From an uncultured Chryseobacterium sp. (lineage in GTDB: Bacteria > Bacteroidota > Bacteroidia > Flavobacteriales > Weeksellaceae): a stretch of DNA of 64,000 nucleotides. How positions within the stretch are numbered: position 1 is the first letter of the stretch; each line of letters begins with the position of its first letter. The notes under the pieces were generated by a model, which was not told the origin of the DNA, did no database searches, and saw nothing but the letters and a program-made list of their open reading frames with translations. The stretch spans positions 1 to 64,000 of the forward strand of contig CAJYXJ010000024.1 of NCBI GenBank assembly GCA_913778085.1, given 5' to 3'. Positions 10,808-64,000 of the stretch are shown in pieces. The translations under genes and the position numbers were made by a program.

Positions 10808-12604
10808 CTATTTCTGCTTTTTTGCCCAGAGTTCCATTTTCCGGTTCAGTACATCCAGCGGAAGGCATCCCTGGCTCAGGACCTCATCATGGAATTTGGC
10901 CAGGCTGAATTTGCTGCCCAGTTCTTTCTGGTACTTTTCCCTAAGCTCACGGATTCTCAATGAGCCGATTTTATAGCCCAATGCCTGTCCGGGCATAGCC
11001 ATATATCTTTCTACCTCGGCCGTGGCACCGGCTTCATCGTATGAGATATTGCTGAGGAAATATTGGATCGCCTGTTCCCTGGTCATTCTTCCCGTGTGGA
11101 GTCCTGTATCAACCACCAAGCGTACCGCTCTCAGCATCTGGTCGCTCAGATAGCCCATTTTCTGATAAGGATCGGTGTACAGCCCGAATTCCGGACCCAA
11201 CGTCTCGCAGTAATGCGCCCAGCCTTCACCATAGGCTCCGAACCATCCGAACCGCATAAATTTGGGAAGCTTTGTGTTTTCCTGCTGTAGGGAAACCTGG
11301 TAATGATGTCCCGGAATCGCTTCGTGCAGAAACAGAGATTCCATTCCTGAGGTAACATTGAATTTGGCAGGATCGGGAAGGGGAACATAAAAAATACCCG
11401 GCCTTTTCCCGTCCGGTGTTCCCTGGATGTATTCCGCACTCGCGCTGGCCTCGCGGAATTTTTCTGTCTGCCTGATCTCAAAACCTGTTTTTGGAGTTAC
11501 CGAGAACATCGTTTTCAGTTTTGGGGTAATTTTTGTTAAAATGCCATTGAAAGCATCCAGTACTTCTTTTGACGTTTTGTAAGGCATGGCCTTAGGATCG
11601 GTTTTTACATAATTGATAAATTCTTCCAATGTTCCCGCAAAACCTACCTGCTGTTTTACTTTTTCCATTTCCGCTCGGAGCATGGCTACCTGCTGAAGGC
11701 CGATTTTATTGATTTCTTCAGGGGTTTTGTTGGTGGTCGTCCAGCTTTTTGCATAATACCGGTAAATTTCCTTTCCGTTCGGTAAGCTGTTGTAACCGTC
11801 CGTATCCCGCGCTTTAGGCAAGTATTCTTTTTCTAAGAAATCGCCCATTTTTTTGTAGGCCGGAATAATTTTTTGTGCAACAGCTTCCTTATAAAGCGTT
11901 GTAAACCGATCCTTCTGCTCCTGGGTAAAATCCTTCGGAAACTTTCTGATCGGTCCGAAGAAAATATTTTTATCCTGATCTCCCGTCGTGATCTCTTCGG
12001 CTCTCATCTGCGGGATCATTTTGATCACCAGCGTTTTGGGCAGGACCATTTTATTGTTGATTCCTTCTCTGAAATTATCGGTGGCCGCATTCATCCATTC
12101 CGGAAATTTTTCCATCCTTTTCAGCCAGTCTTCATAATCTTTTTCAGTTTTAAAAGGCTGGCTGCCTTCTCCGCTTCCGTACAGCGGAAAATTCAGCGGC
12201 AGGCCTCCGAACTGGGTAAAAGGAATATATTCCGGGTGATAGTTATAGGCTTGCGCTTTATCTTTTAAGGTAAAATCCAGGACATCGTACACCACTTTGT
12301 CTTCATCGGAAAGATTTTTATAATCCACATTTTCAAGCTGTTTCTGTACGGAATTGTAAAAAGCAACTTCTCCGGCGATGAAATCCTTGTCTATATTGAT
12401 CGGCAACTGATCGTTATATCTGAGGTCTCCCTGCGAGGTGGCCTCCAATGGATACAGTTTCAGGTATTGCTCATAATAGTTGGCCGCAATGGAATCCAGA
12501 TTGGACGGAGTTACTTTTGTAAGAGGCGAATCGGATTTCCTGCACGAAGCAAGGCTTACAACGAGACTCAGCCCAATTATGCCTTTTGCTAAAATGTTTT
12601 TCAT
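10808..12604 (-). CDS. DUF885 lipoprotein, zinc metallopeptidase-like
   Basis: 598 residues. The lipoprotein signal MKNILAKGIIGLSLVVSLASC has the lipobox LASC. The core motif FLHEAIPGHHYQVSLQQEN near residue 430 is the DUF885 version of HExxxGHH, a gluzincin-like zinc site. Nearby GEGWAHYCETLG supplies the usual downstream glutamate region. The length and the pattern of N-terminal 'YPLEATSQGD' and C-terminal 'MPGQALGYKIG' match DUF885 enzymes, which are annotated as peptidases of the M32-like superfamily. It would act outside the inner membrane. It is a single gene; the 10652-10807 stretch below it shows no gene. Confidence 0.88.
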   Translation of the reverse strand: MKNILAKGIIGLSLVVSLASCRKSDSPLTKVTPSNLDSIAANYYEQYLKLYPLEATSQGDLRYNDQLPINIDKDFIAGEVAFYNSVQKQLENVDYKNLSDEDKVVYDVLDFTLKDKAQAYNYHPEYIPFTQFGGLPLNFPLYGSGEGSQPFKTEKDYEDWLKRMEKFPEWMNAATDNFREGINNKMVLPKTLVIKMIPQMRAEEITTGDQDKNIFFGPIRKFPKDFTQEQKDRFTTLYKEAVAQKIIPAYKKMGDFLEKEYLPKARDTDGYNSLPNGKEIYRYYAKSWTTTNKTPEEINKIGLQQVAMLRAEMEKVKQQVGFAGTLEEFINYVKTDPKAMPYKTSKEVLDAFNGILTKITPKLKTMFSVTPKTGFEIRQTEKFREASASAEYIQGTPDGKRPGIFYVPLPDPAKFNVTSGMESLFLHEAIPGHHYQVSLQQENTKLPKFMRFGWFGAYGEGWAHYCETLGPEFGLYTDPYQKMGYLSDQMLRAVRLVVDTGLHTGRMTREQAIQYFLSNISYDEAGATAEVERYMAMPGQALGYKIGSLRIRELREKYQKELGSKFSLAKFHDEVLSQGCLPLDVLNRKMELWAKKQK

Positions 12605-52920: not shown

Positions 52921-55900
52921 ATGCAGTCGTACTGGCATAACAACAGGGATTTTCCGCCTGCCCATCCGGACTGGAGAAAGAAAGCAGACCTGGTAAACGG
53001 AAAAGTTCCGGCCGGCCAGCTTCCCAGCTACGTGGATGATGTACTGGAATTCAATGCCTACACGGATTTACCAAAACCTGGAGAGAAAGGGAAAATATAT
53101 ATTACGACAACGGATAACAAACAGTTTCGGTGGGGCGGCTCGGCTTATATTGAGATCAGTTCCGATGAAAATGTAATGACGCTCAGTACTGAACAGTCTG
53201 TAAGCGGCAGAAAATATTTTGTAACCTCCAATGGAAGTGATATTCTTAATCAGAAGCTGTGGTTAAGGTCATTTGACGGATCCAATCCCGCTGCTGTTTA
53301 TTATAAAGACGGATATGGTTCCGGCGCATTGGGTTTTGACGGTGATGAGTTCCGTTTAACCAATATAGGAACCAGTGCTTATGCTTATCTGAATACAAAA
53401 GGTATTAAGAAGGATAATTCAAATGATGATTATGTTTTGACCGGGGGTGGGGGGCATATCGTAAAAAAAGATTTGGGAATATCCCATACCCATCAAAGTT
53501 TATTTTCTGAAGATACAGGAAATACAGATGCTAATTCTTTATTGAAAGATTATAAATTAATATTCAATCAGAGAGTGGAACGAGGATCTACCAATATGTT
53601 TCCTATGATTGATAATGCAAATGCTGTTTTAAGCATTGCTTCTCATCCGGGAGGTTATGGAGGACAATTGGGTTTTAATGATAATGAACAAGTTTTTTTC
53701 AGAGGAGTTAGTGCTGGGAATTATGGAACCTGGAAACAGTTTGCATTTAGAGATTGGGTAGACAATAATTATCTGTCATTAAAAGGAGGTACTTTATCAG
53801 GAGATTTAACCTTAAAGGTATTAAAGTCAGACACTCTAAATGGAAACCAAATTGTAAATGCAGGAAATCAGAATCAACTTTACTTCGGTAACCCTGTGGT
53901 CGATACAGTCTACCATGAATCTGGAAACAATCATATTTTTTCCAATAAAGGGAATAGAAGTTTCACAATAGACTCTAATGGCAATGTAACAGCGAAAAAT
54001 GCAGTCAATGCCGGAAATGATTCTGAGATCGGAGGGAGAATATTTGGGAAAAGAACTGTCATTGATACTCTAGGTTTGGATGAATCCAAGTATTATCCGG
54101 TTACCATACAGTGCAATACTCAATATCCTTCTACCATTAAAGTATACAGGACTTTGGATGCTTCAATGGGAGTTCCTTCCTATTCGTCTCATGGTGGAGG
54201 ATTCTGGTGCTATTATGAATTTCAAGTCTATGGGAACGGTTGGGGTACGAATCCACTTAAAGCAACTTGCAATTATGAGGACGAATCCTGGGTGAATGAT
54301 AATATTAAGGTTATTGGCTATGATCATATGGGAAGATCATCGAATGTGGTCATTTATCTTAGAGGAGGTTCCAAGTATTGGTTTGATGTTAATAGTACAT
54401 CAGTTCCCACACTTCATACTTCTCCTTTTACTGTCTATGATGAGACTGTAGAACCTACAAAATCGAGGATATGGAGTGGAAGTATTTTAATGAATGCGAA
54501 TACAAATGATATTCAAAAGGCCATTTCAGGCTTGAATTTCAATTCTGAAAATTATATAAAGAAAAACGAACGAATAAGGATTAATGTACCTAATGGAACT
54601 GTTGATAGTGATCCACACTTCAATTTAGTTGCCTCGAATCTCAATAATACTTCGTTAAGAGCTATTGTGCCATCTACTAATACGGCTGAATTATTTGTAA
54701 GTAATAATGATGATTATGGGACTTTATCGCTGCAATCAGCGGGTGGTAAAGTTAAAATTAATAATTATATTGCATGGCATGGAGGTAATTTAAATCCTCT
54801 AACGCTTAATACGAATCAAACTATTACAGGTCTAAAAGCATTTGTTACAGGTGGAGGAAATTATGCTCCGTTTAATAATGCTTTGCAGATCTATTCTGAT
54901 GATGGCTCTTTGCCTGCAATGACCTATTCTAAAGGTGGTTCCTATGTAGGACAAATCATGTTTAATAGTGATGGGTTCCATATTAAAGATGGTGATAATA
55001 ATAATTACTATCAGATAAAATCTAAAGGGTTTATTAAAAATGGATCAGATGATAATTATGTTCTCTTAGGTGGTGGGCATCATAAGCTTTTATCTGAACT
55101 TGGAACAACTCACACACACCAATTTTTATATAGTTCTGGAAATGGTATAATTGACGCCAATACTATATTGGAAAATGAGCGATTTAATTTTATTCATCAA
55201 ATAAGTTACGGTTCTTCTAACATGTTTCCAATGGTTAATAATGCGAACGCTATTTTAAATATATCATCACATCCAGGAGGATATGGAACTCAATTAGGTT
55301 TTAATGATAATGAACAATTTTTTTTCAGAGGAGTTAGTGCTGGGAATTATAATACCTGGAAAGAATTATGGCATTCTGGGAATTTTAATCCGGGATCAAA
55401 AGTAGATGCAACAGATGGTGCTGTATCGTTAGGATTTGGTGGAGGCGGTTTACCAACTGCATTACCATTCGTTAAGCATTCTAATGGAACCATTACTGAT
55501 ATAGCAAGAGCGGATAGTGTAATCGCTGCTTGGGAAAATGCACAAGCAATTGGTTTTAACTCGTGTTTATCGTCAGCCGGTGTATATGTGTACCATAAAA
55601 AAGATGGGTATATTCAAATTGCTGATAAAAATTGGGTAAGTAATAATTATTTTAATAAAAAGCCTATTGATTATACTGGTTATACTGGAGCGAGTTATGA
55701 TTTAGATGTTCTATCTGAAACAGGCTTTTATAATATTGGACATGGTACTGTAAATGATGCTAGCACTTACTTTAACAATAGTGGCGCTAGAGCCTTATTA
55801 CATTTTCAAGCTGAAAATCCCTGGACAGCAACGCAAATCCAAACTCACAGATATCAAGGAAATCTTATATCAAGGTCTAAGTCTGATGGAGGATGGAGCC

Positions 55901-56304
55901 ATTGGGTAAGACACTGGGGAGACAATGATTTCACGGCTGCGGATGTTGCAAAATGGAACAATTCCATCAGCAAATCATCCGCTTCGGAAGAAGTAATCCT
56001 GGAAGATGATACCCTGAAGATTCAGCCTGACGAATTCTCATTGGAAGGAAGCGAATCCTATGATTTCGGCAGCAGAAAGAAACTGGTACACGTTCTGTTC
56101 AGAGAAGGAAAGGAGTTGAATATCAGGGAGATGATCAAAAGACAGACGATCGTTGTTTTCAATTTCAGCAAAGACGCAATCATCGTGAATATCGAAGGAT
56201 TAAAACCTTATCCGATATCTCCCGGAATGCAGGTAACCTTGTATATCAGTGATGAAAGAGAGGTGCTGCTATACAATGAAACCGACTTTAAAAAATTGCA
56301 ATAA
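52921..56304 (+). CDS. Phage tail-fibre-like giant protein, N-terminus interrupted
   Basis: 1127 residues from the ATG at 52921. The true start is probably at 52873, with a nonsense codon between. No signal peptide. The N-terminal DPWRKK-like region leads to VDDVLEFNAYTDLPKPGEKG and GKIYITTTDNKQFRWGGSAY, the tail-fibre attachment-type module seen in Flavobacteriia phages. Repeated units with SHTHQSLF/THTHQFLY, ASHPGGYGGQLGFNDNEQVF and FFRGVSAGNYGTWK occur near residues 159-283 and 700-820. WHSGNFNPG near 817 is the pyocin-knob/tail-fibre motif. The C-terminal 110 residues (DDTLKIQPDEFSLEG onward) form another module. The middle (about 53400-55900) is clearly more AT-rich than both ends, a mosaic sign. 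It would act in receptor binding if part of a tail-like particle; that is inference. Confidence 0.7.
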   Translation: MQSYWHNNRDFPPAHPDWRKKADLVNGKVPAGQLPSYVDDVLEFNAYTDLPKPGEKGKIYITTTDNKQFRWGGSAYIEISSDENVMTLSTEQSVSGRKYFVTSNGSDILNQKLWLRSFDGSNPAAVYYKDGYGSGALGFDGDEFRLTNIGTSAYAYLNTKGIKKDNSNDDYVLTGGGGHIVKKDLGISHTHQSLFSEDTGNTDANSLLKDYKLIFNQRVERGSTNMFPMIDNANAVLSIASHPGGYGGQLGFNDNEQVFFRGVSAGNYGTWKQFAFRDWVDNNYLSLKGGTLSGDLTLKVLKSDTLNGNQIVNAGNQNQLYFGNPVVDTVYHESGNNHIFSNKGNRSFTIDSNGNVTAKNAVNAGNDSEIGGRIFGKRTVIDTLGLDESKYYPVTIQCNTQYPSTIKVYRTLDASMGVPSYSSHGGGFWCYYEFQVYGNGWGTNPLKATCNYEDESWVNDNIKVIGYDHMGRSSNVVIYLRGGSKYWFDVNSTSVPTLHTSPFTVYDETVEPTKSRIWSGSILMNANTNDIQKAISGLNFNSENYIKKNERIRINVPNGTVDSDPHFNLVASNLNNTSLRAIVPSTNTAELFVSNNDDYGTLSLQSAGGKVKINNYIAWHGGNLNPLTLNTNQTITGLKAFVTGGGNYAPFNNALQIYSDDGSLPAMTYSKGGSYVGQIMFNSDGFHIKDGDNNNYYQIKSKGFIKNGSDDNYVLLGGGHHKLLSELGTTHTHQFLYSSGNGIIDANTILENERFNFIHQISYGSSNMFPMVNNANAILNISSHPGGYGTQLGFNDNEQFFFRGVSAGNYNTWKELWHSGNFNPGSKVDATDGAVSLGFGGGGLPTALPFVKHSNGTITDIARADSVIAAWENAQAIGFNSCLSSAGVYVYHKKDGYIQIADKNWVSNNYFNKKPIDYTGYTGASYDLDVLSETGFYNIGHGTVNDASTYFNNSGARALLHFQAENPWTATQIQTHRYQGNLISRSKSDGGWSHWVRHWGDNDFTAADVAKWNNSISKSSASEEVILEDDTLKIQPDEFSLEGSESYDFGSRKKLVHVLFREGKELNIREMIKRQTIVVFNFSKDAIIVNIEGLKPYPISPGMQVTLYISDEREVLLYNETDFKKLQ
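53391..53760 (+). repeat. Intragenic repeat, unit 1 of the tail-fibre-like gene
   Basis: Codes for the segment around residues 157-280, with near-identical DNA to 55020-55385 in the last 70 bases (GGTTTTAATGATAATGAACA and CAGAGGAGTTAGTGCTGGGA). The similarity is lower upstream. It looks like a recent duplication or gene conversion. Confidence 0.7.
55020..55385 (+). repeat. Intragenic repeat, unit 2 of the tail-fibre-like gene
   Basis: Counterpart of 53391-53760, encoding residues about 700-820. It shares N-x-D-x-NYVL, HTHQ, GSSNMFPM, SSHPGGYG and FFRGVSAGNY with unit 1, then goes on into WHSGNFNPG. Confidence 0.7.
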
Positions 56305-56610: not shown

Positions 56611-59600
56611 ATGTCTACAACAGATTTAAATACAAACAACAGCGCACAGACCCTGTTCAGATTTGCTACCATGAGAAATCCTGAACTGTCTGATCCTAAA
56701 AACATAAAAAGACGATTTATCTTCAGGGATTATACTACTCAAAAAGGAAAGTTTGATCCGAAAGTGGAAGCCGGAGAATCTTTACAAAAGATTTTACAGA
56801 ATCCCAGTAGTATTAACGGATTTACGGTACTTACTGAAGAAGATCTGAAAAGCGGCTATGCTCCTTTTTATGAATATGCGGTATGGGTAGCCAGAAATAA
56901 AGCGACCGCCACAAAAGAAGAATTTGACAAAAAAATCAAAGCCTGCAAAACAGCTAACGGAATTCCTACGGTAGATTACAGAATCTGGGACAACCTGGTC
57001 TATCAGGTCGTTACCCAAAAGGAATTTTACGCAAAGGAACTGATCATGCAGATCCTGCATCTTCATCATATCCTTTCGGTATACGATTTTACGGAAGAAG
57101 CCTATCAGGATGTGGTAAAGGCAAAAGTCGTGTTGCCGAAGGAGCTTTTCAAAGCTTCGCAGTCCGCGGTTAGCAGTAACTCAGGAAGTACCGCAACCCA
57201 AAGAACGGTATATGACAACAAGGCCATGAAATTTGCAGAAGCAACGGTTCATCTGAAAGAAAATGAAGGACTTGCTGAATCAATGTCGAAACTCGAAAAA
57301 GCGTATAAAAAGCAATATGATGAGGCCTATAAAACATCTTACGATCAATATCAGGATCGTGTTAAGCCGCTTTTAAAATCATTACAGAAAGATACGGCAG
57401 AAGCCGACCGGAAAAAGCAGATCCTGGAAAATAGGATCAATTACCTTACTCAGCTGAGCGTGGCCGATCCGGAGAAATTTTATGCCAACAGCGAACTGGA
57501 CATGGAGCTTCACCGCATCAAGGATGAGATTATGCAGATTACAGTACCTGAGACCGAGATTCCGGATTTTGAATTTTCATATAAAACGCCCGAAATTGAC
57601 GCGGCGGTTCTCGGCAGAACCTTAAGCGTTCAGGACCAGAATGCATTGCTTCGCTTATTTGGCGCATCGAGCGTTACGGAAGCTTTATCGGGAATTACCA
57701 GTTTTGATGAACTGAACCAGAATATTTCCCAAAACACGCAGGCTCTGCAGCAGACCGTATTGAATAACACCGTATTAAACCAGCAGGTTTCTGCCAACGT
57801 GGGCGGTGTTGTGGTACCGGTAAGCAATTCCCTGAATTCTAATGGCTGGATTCCTTACAGTGTTAAAACATCTAATGTCGGCAACAATGCCTGGTATATT
57901 ATCCTTACGATAGATGGTTATACCCACAATATCGTTTCAGGATCGTATAAGGTGACGATTAATGGCAGTGATATCAGCTCTACCAATATTATTCAGAATC
58001 TGAATGGTGTACATTCGCTTTTCTATAACGGAACCAACATCCCGGCTTCTCAAACCATCAACAGCAATGGGTTTATATTGCAGGGAGAGGTTGTTCTGGA
58101 TGACGGAAAAACGTATTTGTTAAATGTAACCTTGGTCAGAGATCCCAACGAACTGAACAGAACGCTTAAACAAAATATTTTCAAAGGAGATGCGGCGCTT
58201 ACCTTAAAACAGACTGTGGTAACGGAGCCTGAAAATCCTGAAAATCCACAGAACCCAACCAATCCGACTACAAATCCTAACCCGGCAGACGTTTTTATCC
58301 CTTCAGGTTTCGGGATGAAGAATATCGGTGTGGCGGATTATCTAAAAGTTGAACAAAGCTTACAGGGATATGTAGAAGGAGAAGTCGCCCATATTGAAAA
58401 TGTAATGGCGCGGGAACGCAGGGAAAAAGCCACAAAGAAAACATCAAAAAGTGAAATTACCACCATAGAATCTTCTGATTCTGAAAAAGAACAGCTTCGT
58501 GATACGTCTTCTACCGAACGTTTTGAAATGCAAAACGAAATTGCGAAAGCCATGCAGCAGACCAAAGATGCTCATGCTGAAGCCCATGTTGACGGATCTT
58601 ACGGAGGAATTAGTTTTGGCGTTTCCGGTGGATTTGCTACGCATAATTCTAAAGAAGAGAATATGAAGCAGGCGATGACCCAGGCAAAGGAAATTACCCA
58701 AAAAGCAACTGACAAGATTGTAACCAAAGTTCACAAGGAGCGTACAGAAAAGATGATTGAAGAATTCGAGGAAACCAATATTCATGAATTTGACAATAGA
58801 AAAGGGGATAAGCATGTGGTTGGAGTGTATCGATGGGTAGATAAGGTTTTTAAAAACCAGATCTATAATTACGGTAAAAGAATGATGTTTGAATTTATGA
58901 TTCCGGAACCGGCTAAGTTGCACAGACTTGGAATGACTATTTCTAAAAACCAAGAAAATCAATTGGTTAAACCTGTTGATCCAAGAACTTCTGTTATAAA
59001 TAAAATGGAAAACTATACAGCACTTGATAGTTTTTCTGGAGCGACTACATTGAAATATTGGTCAGGTGTTTATAATGTAGAAATAGATAATTATCCTTCC
59101 GATAAAATATATATTTCAAAAGGATTTGCTTATGGTAGAGATGTTATTCCAGACATGGGAACAACTTCAACAAGTGCTGTAGGTTTACAGAAAGATATTG
59201 AGATACCAGATGGTTATGTTGCTAAAAGTTTTGATATTAAAGGAGGTGGAAAGCAATATCAAGGTTCTCTTGTAAATGCAAGTATTGGAAATCAGATCGC
59301 ATTATCAAATATAAATGTAGGAACTTTTTCTTATGCAAGTTCATTAGAGGAGATATCAGGTATTGTTCCGGTAAGTATTTCTACAGATAGATTTTATTCT
59401 TTCGAGGCTAATGTAATGATTATGTGTGAGCTTACTAAAGAGGGTAAGATCAAATATTTACAGGCTGTTTTCAATAAAATCATTGCCGCTTACGAAAAAG
59501 CCAAAGCCAAATATGAGCAGGACCTGGCTACTGTAAAAGCGCAAGGAGTTGAAATCAAAGGTTCAAACCCCGGTTTCTACAGACAGATTGAAAATACGAT

Positions 59601-60531
59601 TCTCAGAAGAAACTGTATTTCTTACATGATCAATCAGGATCCTTCGGCAGGACTTACTTTTGGAAAAGACAAATATTACCGAACCAACACGTCCGAAGAA
59701 AGCTTCCTGAATACAGAAATTAAACTGGATTCAACGCTCGATAAATACACTGCTTTCGTGAAATTTATGGAACAGGCGTTTGAGTGGGAAATCATGTCTT
59801 ATTATTTCTATCCGTACTATTGGGGGAACAGGAACAACTGGGACCAAATGTATCAGTTCGATGATAATGATGCTACGTTTCGTGCTTTTATGCAATCCGG
59901 TATGGCTAGGGTAATTGTCACCGTGAGACCGGGATTTGAAGAAGCGGTAAGGCATTTCATGGCGACCGGACAGATCTGGAATGGTGGTGAAGTACCAGTA
60001 ATTGATGATCCGATGTTCTTATCCATCGTAGATGAAATGCGTAAAACCGAAGGGGAGAAATATGGTAAAGCCTGGGCGAGCAGGGTTCCTACGGCCCTTA
60101 CCATTCTTCAGGCACAGTCTATCGGGCTACTTGTTACCAAAGCATTGCCTTTTGATGATAACCTGTCGGATTATGAAGATCCAACCAAAGTTCCGCAGTC
60201 TTCTCGGATTGTTTCAACTGATGCACAGATGGGTGTCGGAGAAACGCAGAAATTTGGAAATCTTATGGGGCATATTGAAGGAGCCGGAGGAGAAGAAGCG
60301 AAAATCCTGCTTAAATATCAGGATGGGAGCAATTATACATTTACTTTTTCCAATAAAGAAGGAGATTGGATGATAGAAAAAATTCCTGTTGGAAAATATG
60401 AACTTAATATTGATGCTTACGATGTTTTTCCGAAAAATCATTTTACCGTAATAGAAGGAGAAAAAAACACTGAAGTTATTATTAATGAAGAGGGTACGAC
60501 CGAAGTCAATCTTGTATTGAAAAAAATCTAA
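56611..60531 (+). CDS. Giant 1306-residue mosaic protein with C-terminal CnaB-like domain
   Basis: 1306 residues, no signal peptide. An N-terminal domain of about 200 residues (FRFATMRNPELSDPKNIKRR onward) is followed by coiled coil (about 215-320) and a strand-rich region. A Pro/Asn linker (PENPENPQNPTNPTTNPNP, about 540-558) leads to a second helical, charged region (about 590-730), then HVVGVYRWVDKVFKNQIYNY and GKRMMFEFMIPEPAKLHRLG, a segment I recall from other large Bacteroidota proteins of unknown function. The residues from about 1210 (FGNLMGHIEGAGGEEAKILL to the end) resemble a CnaB/carboxypeptidase-regulatory domain. The stretch about 784-953 (58960-59470) is much more AT-rich than its flanks. 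A second copy of the C-terminal third lies at 63365-64000. Structural or carrier protein is my inference. Confidence 0.75.
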   Translation: MSTTDLNTNNSAQTLFRFATMRNPELSDPKNIKRRFIFRDYTTQKGKFDPKVEAGESLQKILQNPSSINGFTVLTEEDLKSGYAPFYEYAVWVARNKATATKEEFDKKIKACKTANGIPTVDYRIWDNLVYQVVTQKEFYAKELIMQILHLHHILSVYDFTEEAYQDVVKAKVVLPKELFKASQSAVSSNSGSTATQRTVYDNKAMKFAEATVHLKENEGLAESMSKLEKAYKKQYDEAYKTSYDQYQDRVKPLLKSLQKDTAEADRKKQILENRINYLTQLSVADPEKFYANSELDMELHRIKDEIMQITVPETEIPDFEFSYKTPEIDAAVLGRTLSVQDQNALLRLFGASSVTEALSGITSFDELNQNISQNTQALQQTVLNNTVLNQQVSANVGGVVVPVSNSLNSNGWIPYSVKTSNVGNNAWYIILTIDGYTHNIVSGSYKVTINGSDISSTNIIQNLNGVHSLFYNGTNIPASQTINSNGFILQGEVVLDDGKTYLLNVTLVRDPNELNRTLKQNIFKGDAALTLKQTVVTEPENPENPQNPTNPTTNPNPADVFIPSGFGMKNIGVADYLKVEQSLQGYVEGEVAHIENVMARERREKATKKTSKSEITTIESSDSEKEQLRDTSSTERFEMQNEIAKAMQQTKDAHAEAHVDGSYGGISFGVSGGFATHNSKEENMKQAMTQAKEITQKATDKIVTKVHKERTEKMIEEFEETNIHEFDNRKGDKHVVGVYRWVDKVFKNQIYNYGKRMMFEFMIPEPAKLHRLGMTISKNQENQLVKPVDPRTSVINKMENYTALDSFSGATTLKYWSGVYNVEIDNYPSDKIYISKGFAYGRDVIPDMGTTSTSAVGLQKDIEIPDGYVAKSFDIKGGGKQYQGSLVNASIGNQIALSNINVGTFSYASSLEEISGIVPVSISTDRFYSFEANVMIMCELTKEGKIKYLQAVFNKIIAAYEKAKAKYEQDLATVKAQGVEIKGSNPGFYRQIENTILRRNCISYMINQDPSAGLTFGKDKYYRTNTSEESFLNTEIKLDSTLDKYTAFVKFMEQAFEWEIMSYYFYPYYWGNRNNWDQMYQFDDNDATFRAFMQSGMARVIVTVRPGFEEAVRHFMATGQIWNGGEVPVIDDPMFLSIVDEMRKTEGEKYGKAWASRVPTALTILQAQSIGLLVTKALPFDDNLSDYEDPTKVPQSSRIVSTDAQMGVGETQKFGNLMGHIEGAGGEEAKILLKYQDGSNYTFTFSNKEGDWMIEKIPVGKYELNIDAYDVFPKNHFTVIEGEKNTEVIINEEGTTEVNLVLKKI

Positions 60532-60551
60532 GTTAATCCTCTTTGGGCTAT

Positions 60552-60580
60552 TAAGCAGCAAGTTTATTTCTTGCTGCTTA
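60552..60580 (+). other. Perfect hairpin between the giant gene and the effector gene
   Basis: An 11-base perfect stem, TAAGCAGCAAG/CTTGCTGCTTA, with a 7-base loop. There is no T-run after it, so full termination is unlikely. It may tune expression between the two genes, protect an mRNA end, or mark a recombination point. Confidence 0.5.
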
Positions 60581-60606
60581 GTGCCTAAAGCCTAAAACAA
60601 TGAAAT

Positions 60607-62484
60607 ATGGAAACAAAAATAACAGGTATTCAATTGCTAAAGTTACCTGAAAGTGTAAAAAAGCAAAGGAAAGCAACCCATAGTGTAATTCTCAGTACCC
60701 AAAACTTTGATGCCCAAACGCAAAAACTTCTTATATCGGTAGATAACAAAATATCTGAAATTAATCCGAAAACCAAAGAAGCGGAAATTACGATAAAAGA
60801 AAAACCGAAAAATGAATTGCAGACTATTTTAGCTTCTGCTGATACCTACCGGGTTAAAGGGCATATTGTTGATCCGGAAACAACGAAGATTTCAGGTTCC
60901 GTATCACAGGAATTTCATTCACAAGTCCAGAATTTCCAGCATACAAAGACAGATGGACTTCATAAAACCAGTGATGTGATTTTGGGAGAATATAATAGCA
61001 TTATAGAGAAATGGAAAAAAGAGATACAGGAAAAGCCTGAAATATTACAGCTGTTCTTCGCAAAACTAAGTATAGAAACAAAGGAAGGCAAAAAACCGAG
61101 AAGAAAAATAGAATCTGTAGATACTGCAAAACTGGGAGATGAACTTTATATTGTCTGTAAAACGAAAAATATGCAAGGTAAAAAAGTCAGAATATATGTA
61201 CGTCAGGGCAGGCAAGATGTTTTAGGAAGAACAGATGAAAATATTGAACTATTCATGAATACAGGATTCTCTTTATCTATGGAAATGACCGTAGGTAAAG
61301 AGGCTTCTCAGAATCAATACAGCAATTCCGGACAATTGAAAGATTATGCCTATGGGAAAATAAAACTTATTCCTAAAGAGACTATTGCAAATTCAGATGA
61401 AAATCTTAAAAAGTGGCAGGAGATTTTAAAAAACGCACAGGATCATCAAACTTTTTTATACATTTATGCTGAAATGGTGGAAGATACTTCTGTGTTTTTA
61501 GATGATAGTAAGAATGAAGAGTTCTTAGCAATAAAAGGAGAAGACGTTGTAAAGGATCAAGAACAAAAAAAGCTAAATCAAGAAGAGAGTGAAAATAATG
61601 CATGTGGAATTCAATATCGAAACAGTATAATATGTGTAAGATATGGTAAAAATTATGGTCCTTTATATAATGGTATCATTCCTTTGAAAAATTTTAAAAA
61701 TTGGAATATTGTTAAAATTTCAAAGGAAGAAAAAGAAATAATTTTAGCAATGTCAGAAAATGAAGGTAATTTAGACGCAGTTCAATCTTATGATAGTGAA
61801 ATAATTACTGTAGGTGCAATGCAAAAAACAATAAATTCAGATGGTTACGGAGAACTATCAAAACAATTTTGGGATTTTAAACAAGAAAATCCAATTGACT
61901 TTAAAGTTTTAATGGAAAATTGTGGTTGGAATGTTAAACAAGAAGAAGAGAAAAATAAGAAAGGTGAAATAGTTAGATTTAAATATAAAGCCTATTATAA
62001 TGATAAAACAGGAAAAGAACTAAAAGCTATAATAAGAAATGGGTTTATTAAATCTAAATATAAAGAAAAAGTTAAATGTGTAGCTATGGAACCTATAATA
62101 AATTTGTGTAAAAATGAAAATTTTCAGGCAAAACAAATAGGAGATTTTATAGTTAGATTAAACTTGGCAACAAATAAAAAACCATTAGGTTATACCAATA
62201 AGATAAAAGATTTTATGATTTCTAAATTAGGTAAAGCTACTATTCTGGATCATGATGTCAACAGACCGGGGCATGTTTCATCTTGTTTTGGTAAAGCCTT
62301 AGACCAATTTTTTCAATCTAATAATAGTATTTCTAAAGACCCTTTACAATGGAAAGATAAACATTCTATATATGAAAACAAAATTTTAGAAATCTACGGT
62401 CCTTTAAGGGGTGATAGAGAATCTGGATTTACCATGACTGATGCTTCTTCAAGATATAATAAACTTAAACAAAAATTGACATGA
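60607..62484 (+). CDS. Putative effector with lysozyme-like C-terminal half
   Basis: 625 residues, no signal peptide. Residues 1-325 are Lys/Glu-rich; a strand-rich segment around 180-215 (LGDELYIVCKTKNMQGKKVR) resembles Ig-like modules found in large Bacteroidota effector-type proteins. A short linker (about 318-330) leads to the AT-rich C-terminal half. There NEGNLDAVQSYDSEIITVGA (about 385-404) followed by MQKTINSDGYGELSKQFWDF and FKVLMENCGWNV has the layout of lysozyme-like muramidases, with Glu384 or Glu386 as candidate acid and Asp390/Asp396 nearby. DHDVNRPGHVSSCFGKALDQ and a Leu/Lys-rich tail follow. A drop in GC near 61590 separates body from toxin-like half, as in polymorphic toxins. 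Peptidoglycan hydrolase activity is inferred only. Confidence 0.6.
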   Translation: METKITGIQLLKLPESVKKQRKATHSVILSTQNFDAQTQKLLISVDNKISEINPKTKEAEITIKEKPKNELQTILASADTYRVKGHIVDPETTKISGSVSQEFHSQVQNFQHTKTDGLHKTSDVILGEYNSIIEKWKKEIQEKPEILQLFFAKLSIETKEGKKPRRKIESVDTAKLGDELYIVCKTKNMQGKKVRIYVRQGRQDVLGRTDENIELFMNTGFSLSMEMTVGKEASQNQYSNSGQLKDYAYGKIKLIPKETIANSDENLKKWQEILKNAQDHQTFLYIYAEMVEDTSVFLDDSKNEEFLAIKGEDVVKDQEQKKLNQEESENNACGIQYRNSIICVRYGKNYGPLYNGIIPLKNFKNWNIVKISKEEKEIILAMSENEGNLDAVQSYDSEIITVGAMQKTINSDGYGELSKQFWDFKQENPIDFKVLMENCGWNVKQEEEKNKKGEIVRFKYKAYYNDKTGKELKAIIRNGFIKSKYKEKVKCVAMEPIINLCKNENFQAKQIGDFIVRLNLATNKKPLGYTNKIKDFMISKLGKATILDHDVNRPGHVSSCFGKALDQFFQSNNSISKDPLQWKDKHSIYENKILEIYGPLRGDRESGFTMTDASSRYNKLKQKLT

Positions 62485-63260
62485 TAAGATTTTTTCTAGT
62501 ATTTTTATTTATTAATATAAGTATATTTCTATTTTCTCAAACCAACCAATGTAATGAAATTAAAGTAGATTCAATGTCTATATATATTAATGGCATAGCA
62601 TACAAAATAAATGCAAAGGAACCAAACTTTAATATTGAAAAACAATGTTTCGATAATTATTTAATTATTATATGTACTCGTCAAAATGGTAATGAATATG
62701 ATATTAAGCACTTTGTTTATATCTATGAAAAAAATAGATATGCATTAAAATATAAATATCGACTATATTCTAATCGTCAAGGTCATCAATTATATGGAAG
62801 TATTGGGGATAATACTGATTTATCTCTCTTGAATATTGAGAACATTTCAGATGATTTTTTATTGAATGAATCTTTTGATGCTCAAAGCAAACAAGGAGAA
62901 ATTTATAAATCTTTTTATTCTAGTTTGATCAAGAAAAACAAATACAATGTGAAAATATTAAATTTATTAGGAAACCCATATATCATAAATAATGAAAATA
63001 TGTTAATTAGTGAGAGTACTAAGGTAATGACTAATCTCGCTTTTGATCTCTTTAAAACAAAGAGTTATATTAACTCAATTTATTTATCAAGTTTTATATT
63101 AAAAAAATATCCTACAAATGCCATAGCGTGGCTTAATCTTGCAGATGCACAATGGGAGCTTGGTCAAAAAGAAGAAGCAAAAGTTTCTTATCAAAAATAT
63201 CTTTTTTTAATAAAAAATCTCAGGACCCCACCCAAAAGGGTTTATGAAAGAAGTAAATAA
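62481..63260 (+). CDS. Secreted TPR protein, candidate periplasmic immunity protein
   Basis: 259 residues, very AT-rich. Signal peptide MIRFFLVFLFINISIFLFSQ. Its ATG overlaps the effector stop by 4 bases (ATGA), so translation is coupled. The body has two cysteines soon after the signal and a pair further on, then a long strand/helix region. The C-terminal 90 residues contain a TPR: SSFILKKYPTNAIAWLNLAD and AQWELGQKEEAKVSYQKYLF. A secreted partner translated with a cell-wall-targeting effector fits an immunity or stabilising role, but this rests on position, export and composition only. Confidence 0.6.
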   Translation: MIRFFLVFLFINISIFLFSQTNQCNEIKVDSMSIYINGIAYKINAKEPNFNIEKQCFDNYLIIICTRQNGNEYDIKHFVYIYEKNRYALKYKYRLYSNRQGHQLYGSIGDNTDLSLLNIENISDDFLLNESFDAQSKQGEIYKSFYSSLIKKNKYNVKILNLLGNPYIINNENMLISESTKVMTNLAFDLFKTKSYINSIYLSSFILKKYPTNAIAWLNLADAQWELGQKEEAKVSYQKYLFLIKNLRTPPKRVYERSK

Positions 63261-63324
63261 AAGAATCCGCCTCGTTTTAGACTGCACCCAAAAGTTTAGA
63301 CAAAATTAAACAATATTATTAGAT

Positions 63325-63355
63325 GAAAGAGTTCGGTACATTACCGGACTCTTTC
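63325..63355 (+). terminator. Hairpin after the TPR protein gene
   Basis: GAAAGAGTTCGGT/ACCGGACTCTTTC with one G-U-type mismatch, in the short gap (63261-63364) between the effector module and the displaced copy. The gap also contains GCACCCAAAAGTTTAGACAA, which reminds me of insertion-sequence ends, but no transposase is present. Confidence 0.5.
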
Positions 63356-63364
63356 CATTTCAGA

Positions 63365-64000
63365 CACTATGCAGTCCGGGATGGCAAGGGTGATTGTCAC
63401 CGTAAGACCGGGATTTGAAGAAGCCGTAAGGCATTTCATGGCGACCGGACAGATCTGGAACGGCGGTGAAGTACCGGTAATTGATGATCCGTTGTTCTTA
63501 TCCATCGTAGATGAAATGCGTAAAACCGAAGGGGATAAATATGGTAAAGCCTAGGCTAGCAGGGTTCCTACTGCACTCACTATTCTTCAGGCACAGTCGA
63601 TCGGACTGAATGTTACCAAAGCATTGCCTTTTGATGATAACCTTTCCGACTACGAAGATCCAACCAAAGTTCCGCAGTCTTCTCAGATTGTTTCAACTGA
63701 TGCACAGATGGGAGGAAGTGACGAGCAGAAGACAGGATCAATTTCCGGTCATATAGAAGGTTTACAAGGGCTTTTGCCGGAAATCATGCTTAAAAATAAA
63801 GATAAATCACCCGTAGATTTTACCAATCCGGATGATAAAGGGGATTTCTGGATGGAAAATATTCCTGTTGGTAAATACGAGCTCTGTCTTGATGAAAATG
63901 ATGACTTTGATAACCAGTATTCTGTTATAGAAGGAAAAGTAACAAGGGTTGTGGAAGTAAAAGAAGCTTCTGCGACCACAGTTCATCTGGTTGTTAAAAA
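63365..64000 (+). pseudogene. Displaced second C-terminus of the giant protein, with nonsense codon and divergent tail
   Basis: DNA from about 63365 aligns with the giant gene from about 59886 (ATGCAGTCCGGGATGGCAAG against ATGCAATCCGGTATGGCTAG), reading MQSGMARVIVTVRPGFEEAV and FMATGQIWNGGEVPVIDD. A TAG at 63552-63554 replaces the Trp codon of the giant gene (KA-stop-ASRV for KAWASRV). The similarity holds to IVSTDAQMGG, then the CnaB-like tail is a different version (KTGSISGHIEGLQGLLPEIM to VVEVKEASATTVHLVVKK, quoted in part). It has no start of its own beyond a stray ATG and runs off the window end within a residue or two of the expected stop. Confidence 0.8.

Follow-up and report, generated by a model that had tools for sequence, protein, structure and literature searches.

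We propose that the locus at the 3' end of the window, by which we mean the whole 64,000-nucleotide stretch of Chryseobacterium DNA analysed here (the first 64,000 of the 70,628 bases of its contig), is a polymorphic toxin-immunity locus built on a carrier family that has apparently not been described so far, in which the constant part would deliver, a variable tail would dock the cognate effector, and cassettes would be exchanged; we consider this reading likely, with some reserve. Bacteria probably use the system as a weapon against one another. By comparison of sequences, we could establish the cassette anatomy, the association between tail class and next gene, the variety of the predicted toxins and the position of the putative immunity genes, and the locus has the attributes of polymorphic toxin-immunity systems: a conserved trafficking part with a variable toxin end, adjacent immunity genes, and orphan cassettes downstream. 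A preliminary description of this DNA had proposed a polymorphic effector locus, a part of its interpretation that stood, and a contractile or tail-derived origin, a part that did not.

All genes of the locus within the window lie on the forward strand. A gene for a tail-fibre-like protein of 1127 residues (52921..56304) stands upstream of the carrier gene (1306 residues; 56611..60531), in which the conserved core, the part common to other phyla (residues 558-1182; 58282..60156), is followed by a variable and weakly CnaB-like C-terminal tail, tail A (60178..60531). The next gene encodes effector E1 (625 residues; 60607..62484), and its stop is overlapped by the start of a gene for a putative immunity protein of 259 residues (62481..63260) with a signal-peptide-like N-terminus and one TPR. 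A displaced copy of carrier codons 1094-1208, with 92% DNA identity and one in-frame stop, forms a homology arm at 63368..63712, which passes into an orphan tail, tail B (63713..64000, continuing to contig position 64007). Beyond the window lie effector E2 (680 residues; contig 64078-66120), a lipoprotein-like putative immunity gene (299 residues; contig 66122-67021), a transposase-like ORF (by eye) and more ORFs. Thus, the ORF list bears out the gene order and the displaced carrier end of the preliminary description, the carrier N-terminus has, by eye, no hydrophobic stretch and no signal peptide, as had been claimed, and the sequence past 64000, where it had been suggested to look for further effector modules, does hold one, E2 with its lipoprotein-like gene. 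At locus L003, a transposase-like ORF (11146-12009; REP-associated type by eye) lies between the orphan cassette and further ORFs, which resemble an orphan toxin end and an immunity gene.

The upstream gene had been called tail-fibre-like, and indeed it matched a PHROGs tail fibre family (phrog_33450, E 7e-12), the top row of that search being phrog_15439 (label peptidase, E 4e-12); in Pfam nothing passed E 0.05. It falls into a cluster (family F16) with genes that precede other carriers, and fibre-like genes accompany carriers in 39 of 78 loci by a first motif and in 43 of 78 by a looser one, where they perhaps serve target binding. Another contig of the same genome (C51) has a second carrier with 38% identity, in the order fibre-like gene, carrier, 742-residue effector and, further on, an immunity gene of the SUKH-1 (SMI1_KNR4) family.

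The displaced end matches the intact carrier over 345 bp at 92.2% identity (codons 1094-1208, E 3e-147), a similarity far beyond chance, and diverges abruptly at the tail. Its alignment with a locus of Chryseobacterium sp. SN22 (L113) is longer, 715 bp with 89.9% identity, and takes in the tail up to the effector start; there the same tail B sits on an intact carrier, beside an effector that matches E2 at 86% identity in its first 257 residues but has an end without similarity to the E2 end. By its sequence, then, the displaced 3' end is an orphan cassette, with the architecture of Rhs/CDI loci, in which, according to one study (PMC4927057), orphan C-terminal modules of Rhs and CdiA retain a homology arm that matches the gene before them. 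The copy and the divergence proposed in the preliminary description both stood; the CnaB likeness of tail A is weak, with a match to the CnaB/carboxypeptidase-regulatory-like family PF13620 at E 0.0036, below the family cut-off. Among 60 genomes, including the source genome, we found five carrier C-terminal fragments in four: one each in the source genome (G000), G003 and G026, and a pair in G033, which lies on separate contigs and may be due to assembly cuts. Of 71 loci, 23 have orphan effector-end ORFs downstream; these ORFs number 46, and 45 match an effector within its last 40%, which together with the homology arm upholds the earlier view of an effector-type locus with exchangeable C-terminal cassettes.

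The carrier consists of a helical N-terminal part with a coiled coil (about residues 30-309), a beta domain (390-535), a linker, the core (558-1182) and the variable tail. It had no usable match in Pfam, NCBIfam or PHROGs, and a known non-secretion family for it was not found there. Rhs, VgrG and PAAR models of Pfam and NCBIfam matched none of the four window proteins, and neither did the Pfam models for the two-partner secretion domain of CDI (T5SS) or for CdiB; Rhs/YD repeats were likewise unmatched in the carrier and effector of the window. These results agree with the earlier statement that the carrier is neither Rhs nor VgrG. The two structure models have the helical part with its long coiled coil, the beta domain, and a jelly-roll at residues 830-943; the core was poorly modelled in both, and fold searches with these models, in a comparison with Tc toxins and pore-forming binary toxins, returned mainly generic jelly-rolls. 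The beta-type moment of a hairpin at residues ~653-678 is strong in some distant relatives, and both models place this hairpin between helices, at low confidence; in a scan of the whole carrier it ranks only twelfth.

We found the carrier in 30 of 37 genomes of the genus (the source genome included) and in none of 23 others, and in 16 of 395 genomes of a sample of the phylum. Across Chryseobacterium the arrangement is conserved, as the preliminary description had suggested examining, and relatives do carry variable tails and effectors at this place. We read 42 loci, and 82 more from named-genome (80, the best 80 of 342) and viral (2) collections, sets that overlap; a carrier ORF was obtained from 81 of the 82. 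Parts of the core (residues ~563-1173) also occur in 14 records of a plasmid collection, 13 of them outside Chryseobacterium: Sinorhizobium (4), Ensifer (2), Streptomyces (2), and one each from Tsukamurella, Cupriavidus, Natronorubrum, Nonomuraea and Aulosira, the last two as short pieces only. The core is present also in Actinomycetota, Hyphomicrobiales, Cyanobacteriota and an archaeon, as well as in a prophage. At all eight loci that we read outside Flavobacteriales (L102, L103, L195-L199 and L213), an ORF of 360 residues or more, on the same strand, follows the carrier within about 400 bp, and these ORFs differ among themselves, by an unsystematic look; the large ORF follows directly in seven, and in Natronorubrum it is a patatin after a short overlapping ORF. 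A patatin-like phospholipase gene also occurs upstream of the carrier at L008 (16055-17128) and at 12 of 78 named loci. By motif, 10 of 78 loci, several of Flavobacteriaceae type, have a repressor-like gene that is read in the direction opposite to the carrier; it starts about 1 kb before the carrier at nine (L139, L142, L149, L153, L155, L156, L157, L171 and L190) and is 6 kb away at the tenth (L180).

By their length and motifs, the tails can be sorted into a few classes, two of which each go with a particular next gene. In the first two downstream genes of 81 loci, a small nucleotidyltransferase-like ORF followed 26 of 34 T2 tails and none of the 47 others, and a fibre-like gene followed 25 of 27 short T3 tails and none of the 54 others. 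The nucleotidyltransferase label of this T2 adaptor is a motif seen by eye that Pfam did not confirm; a 96-residue relative of the adaptor stands third after two T3 carriers (L179, L181), and likewise at L055 and L060.

Tails are also associated with effectors. Over 76 carrier-effector pairs, we compared the most-alike with the least-alike tails and obtained similarities of 0.324 versus 0.044 for effector fronts, 0.332 versus 0.043 for effector middles, 0.070 versus 0.050 for toxin ends, and 0.736 versus 0.513 for carrier cores. The partial correlation of the effector front was 0.187 for the core given the tail, compared to 0.098 for the tail given the core, while that of the middle was 0.196 for the tail and 0.056 for the core; for front and middle alike, none of 300 permutations gave a partial r for the tail as high, although these permutations ignore phylogeny and the loci are not independent. 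For toxin ends versus tails, r was 0.054, and 5 of 300 permutations were as high. Because the front tracks core similarity better than the tail, the pairing is suggestive at this scale. It appears clearest in close comparisons of sequence: all tail A carriers (window, L140, L040) have E1-type effector fronts, and tail B (orphan, L113, L137, L138) goes with E2-type fronts. Strict pairing is broken at L139, where an E2-type effector stands with another tail, and L142, L157, L161 and L183 have CnaB-like tails with another effector family. The idea that tail and adjacent effector form a specificity pair is supported, in the sense of a likely matched pair.

In an all-against-all comparison of 76 effectors from named loci (at least two of which, L150 and L177, are probably fibre proteins) with E1 and E2, we found that front and middle are conserved and the end is variable. 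At most 19 of 71 effector ends contain a named toxin domain (Pfam, E up to 0.01): Tox-MPTase4 in eight, CdiA_C in three, Gln_amidase in two, and YwqJ-deaminase, WHH, Ntox28, EndoU, Colicin-DNase and Toxin-deaminase in one each. The fronts of E1 and E2 are homologous (hhalign 96%, E 2.5e-9), with a common N-terminal domain of about 115 residues, and the rest is divergent. The remainder of E1 is lysozyme-like only by eye, with nothing found in Pfam and PDB sequence searches; E2 has a lambda-lysozyme-like stretch (E 0.0011) and a C39-like peptidase domain (E 1e-17). Endolysin-like and lytic-transglycosidase-like stretches occur in the effectors of L113 (E 1.3e-5) and L137 (E 2.6e-12), respectively; the effectors of L138 and L139 are related to E2, and no search supports an activity for that of L186.

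A hydrophobic stretch, on average near the middle, is present in 57 of the 76 effectors from named loci and absent from all seven just named (E1, E2, L113, L137, L138, L139 and L186). Small genes sit after effectors, the SUKH-1 gene of C51 being a known immunity family near a carrier. The putative immunity proteins look secreted in five of five cases among the seven (E1, E2, L113, L139, L186), compared to 4 of 64 others (p 1e-5), a group of five that was defined after inspection of the data, with secretion called by a crude method; the four others are doubtful by eye. A plain test of hydrophobic stretch against secreted immunity over 69 effectors gave p 0.0135. L137 and L138 fall outside these 69, a near next gene being missing; the ORF next after the L138 effector, 581 bp on, is not secreted. 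The lysozyme-like and C39-peptidase-like domains of E2 and the secreted-looking immunity proteins of both effectors fit toxins that would act in the periplasm.

We suggest that these parts would work together as follows. The constant part of the carrier would be the delivery vehicle, and its short C-terminal tail a docking module that may bind directly the front of the effector from the following gene; its partner may alternatively be a fibre or a small adaptor. The effector end would be the toxin, which the product of the next gene would neutralize, and the fibres would bind the target. Tail, effector and immunity gene would be swapped together, as one cassette, when the conserved core recombines, a process that would leave orphan cassettes behind, such as that at 63368.

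How the unit leaves the cell separates this proposal from the strongest alternative, in which it is freed by lysis and enters the target by its own means or by uptake, like a multi-protein bacteriocin. This reading, which overlaps our own except for the release route, seems to us a serious possibility of somewhat less than even standing. It is consistent with a carrier that by eye has no signal peptide, with the hydrophobic stretch of most effectors, and with the independence from contractile machines described below. A single prophage (L213, IMGVR_UViG_2531839366_000001) encodes a distant carrier, the tail of which is discoidin-like by eye, together with a 387-residue partner near amidase- and holin-like genes (by eye), the one example of such a pair near lysis genes; in contrast, no lysis gene was noticed beside the Chryseobacterium loci in an unsystematic look. 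More tentatively, the carrier could be a self-contained delivery device of a new type, found in several bacterial phyla and an archaeon, that forms an oligomer, inserts a helix/beta-hairpin element of its core into the target envelope, is aimed by fibres and N-terminal domains, and takes different toxins on plug-in tails; we regard this as rather unlikely in its full form.

Since the T6SSiii sheath gene tssC was present in 37 of 37 genus genomes searched, the source genome included, and the latter also has an eCIS-like cluster, either machine could be imagined as the route. VgrG proteins of the T6SS can have a C-terminal extension that docks a cognate effector encoded alongside. The carrier might similarly serve the Bacteroidota T6SSiii as cargo or as adaptor and be fired by this machine, which is found throughout the genus, a reading that we consider improbable. 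In the source genome the T6SSiii genes are scattered (C6, 61064-63415, in L205; C72, 50264-51538), with a TssE-like gp25 gene adjoining a TssF-like gene (by eye) on one contig and TssC on another. Of 142 fetched loci, only L077 has genes of this type (TssE/TssF) near the carrier. Against such a role, the carrier was not found in 7 of the 37 genus genomes with TssC, its core is also known from Actinomycetota, from an archaeon and from a prophage, and 8 of the 16 carrier genomes of the phylum sample are without TssC, including one of the genus (G332) with two carriers and a gp25 gene. In five of the 16 (G085, G367, G390, G430 and G072, all at least 99% complete), both TssC and a gp25 match are absent; the carrier matches are long in G367 and G390, core-only in G085 and G072, and split in G430. 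Assignment as a T6SS cargo, which would place a T6SS wherever the carrier is, was not supported, TssC being in 8 of the 16; the search for VipB-type sheaths covered the source genome.

Loading into an extracellular contractile injection system appears still less likely. The eCIS-like cluster of the source genome is divided between two contigs (C79, L206; C70, L207) and comprises genes for tube, VgrG-like, PAAR, gp25, baseplate and sheath-like proteins. Genes of an eCIS lie a few kb from the carrier at L041 and L137 (G026, C. gambrini), which have equal carrier length, effector length and tail, but these are only 2 of the 142 loci; eCIS effectors encoded elsewhere in a genome are invisible to this locus-based count. 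Assignment as an eCIS cargo, defined by location in the cluster, was not supported on the same count. Matches to gp25 (106 genomes of a second search of 395, taken as the same sample) were commoner in carrier genomes (11 of 16 versus 95 of 379, Fisher 4e-4), a comparison that mixes eCIS, T6SS and phage and ignores phylogeny, and 5 of the 16 have none. In all, eight probes from the source genome (E 1e-5) detected contractile-machine genes at 3 of the 142 loci, which overlap between collections and have flanks of at most about 10-15 kb. With TssC absent from half of the carrier genomes, gp25 also absent from five, and contractile genes at so few loci, the carrier does not seem to need these machines in general, although within Chryseobacterium it may still use the T6SSiii; the earlier suggestion of a system derived from a tail or contractile injection machine is not supported. 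A role within the producing cell, as a toxin-antitoxin module or in defence against phages, is very improbable: the toxin does adjoin an immunity gene and copies occur on plasmids and in a prophage, but the lysozyme- and endolysin-like effectors, whose immunity proteins look secreted, agree with export from cell to cell, as do the fibre-like partners and the orphan cassettes.

The polymorphic toxin-immunity locus that we favor shares with Rhs and CdiA (CDI) a constant carrier, an exchangeable 3' cassette, an immunity gene, and orphan modules with a homology arm; it differs in that the toxin is a protein of its own, what is exchanged on the carrier is a short tail, and models for Rhs, two-partner secretion, VgrG and PAAR are unmatched. 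Like T6SS VgrG with a docking extension, the carrier has a C-terminal extension next to a cognate effector, but it has no VgrG match and is present in genomes without TssC. As with eCIS and tailocins, fibre-like genes lie nearby and the effectors are of varied chemistry; contractile-machine genes, however, are rare here. In the open-licence full-text literature searched, we recognized no description of this system, as the preliminary description had surmised in calling it a system without a name. The accessible portion of PMC12483513 names Chryseobacterium toxin-immunity pairs and contains no such carrier, the main text of PMC12419801 does not mention Chryseobacterium, and neither does the accessible portion of Zhang et al. 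2012 (PMC3482391).

Few vehicles of polymorphic toxins are known, and this carrier family would join them, with modular tails that match certain adaptors, fibres and effectors. Since one gene encodes the toxin and another the carrier, both the rule of docking and the route of delivery are open to direct test. Finally, the core is widely spread, and the 14 plasmid records list it as hypothetical or leave it without annotation, which suggests that a common weapon may so far have been overlooked.
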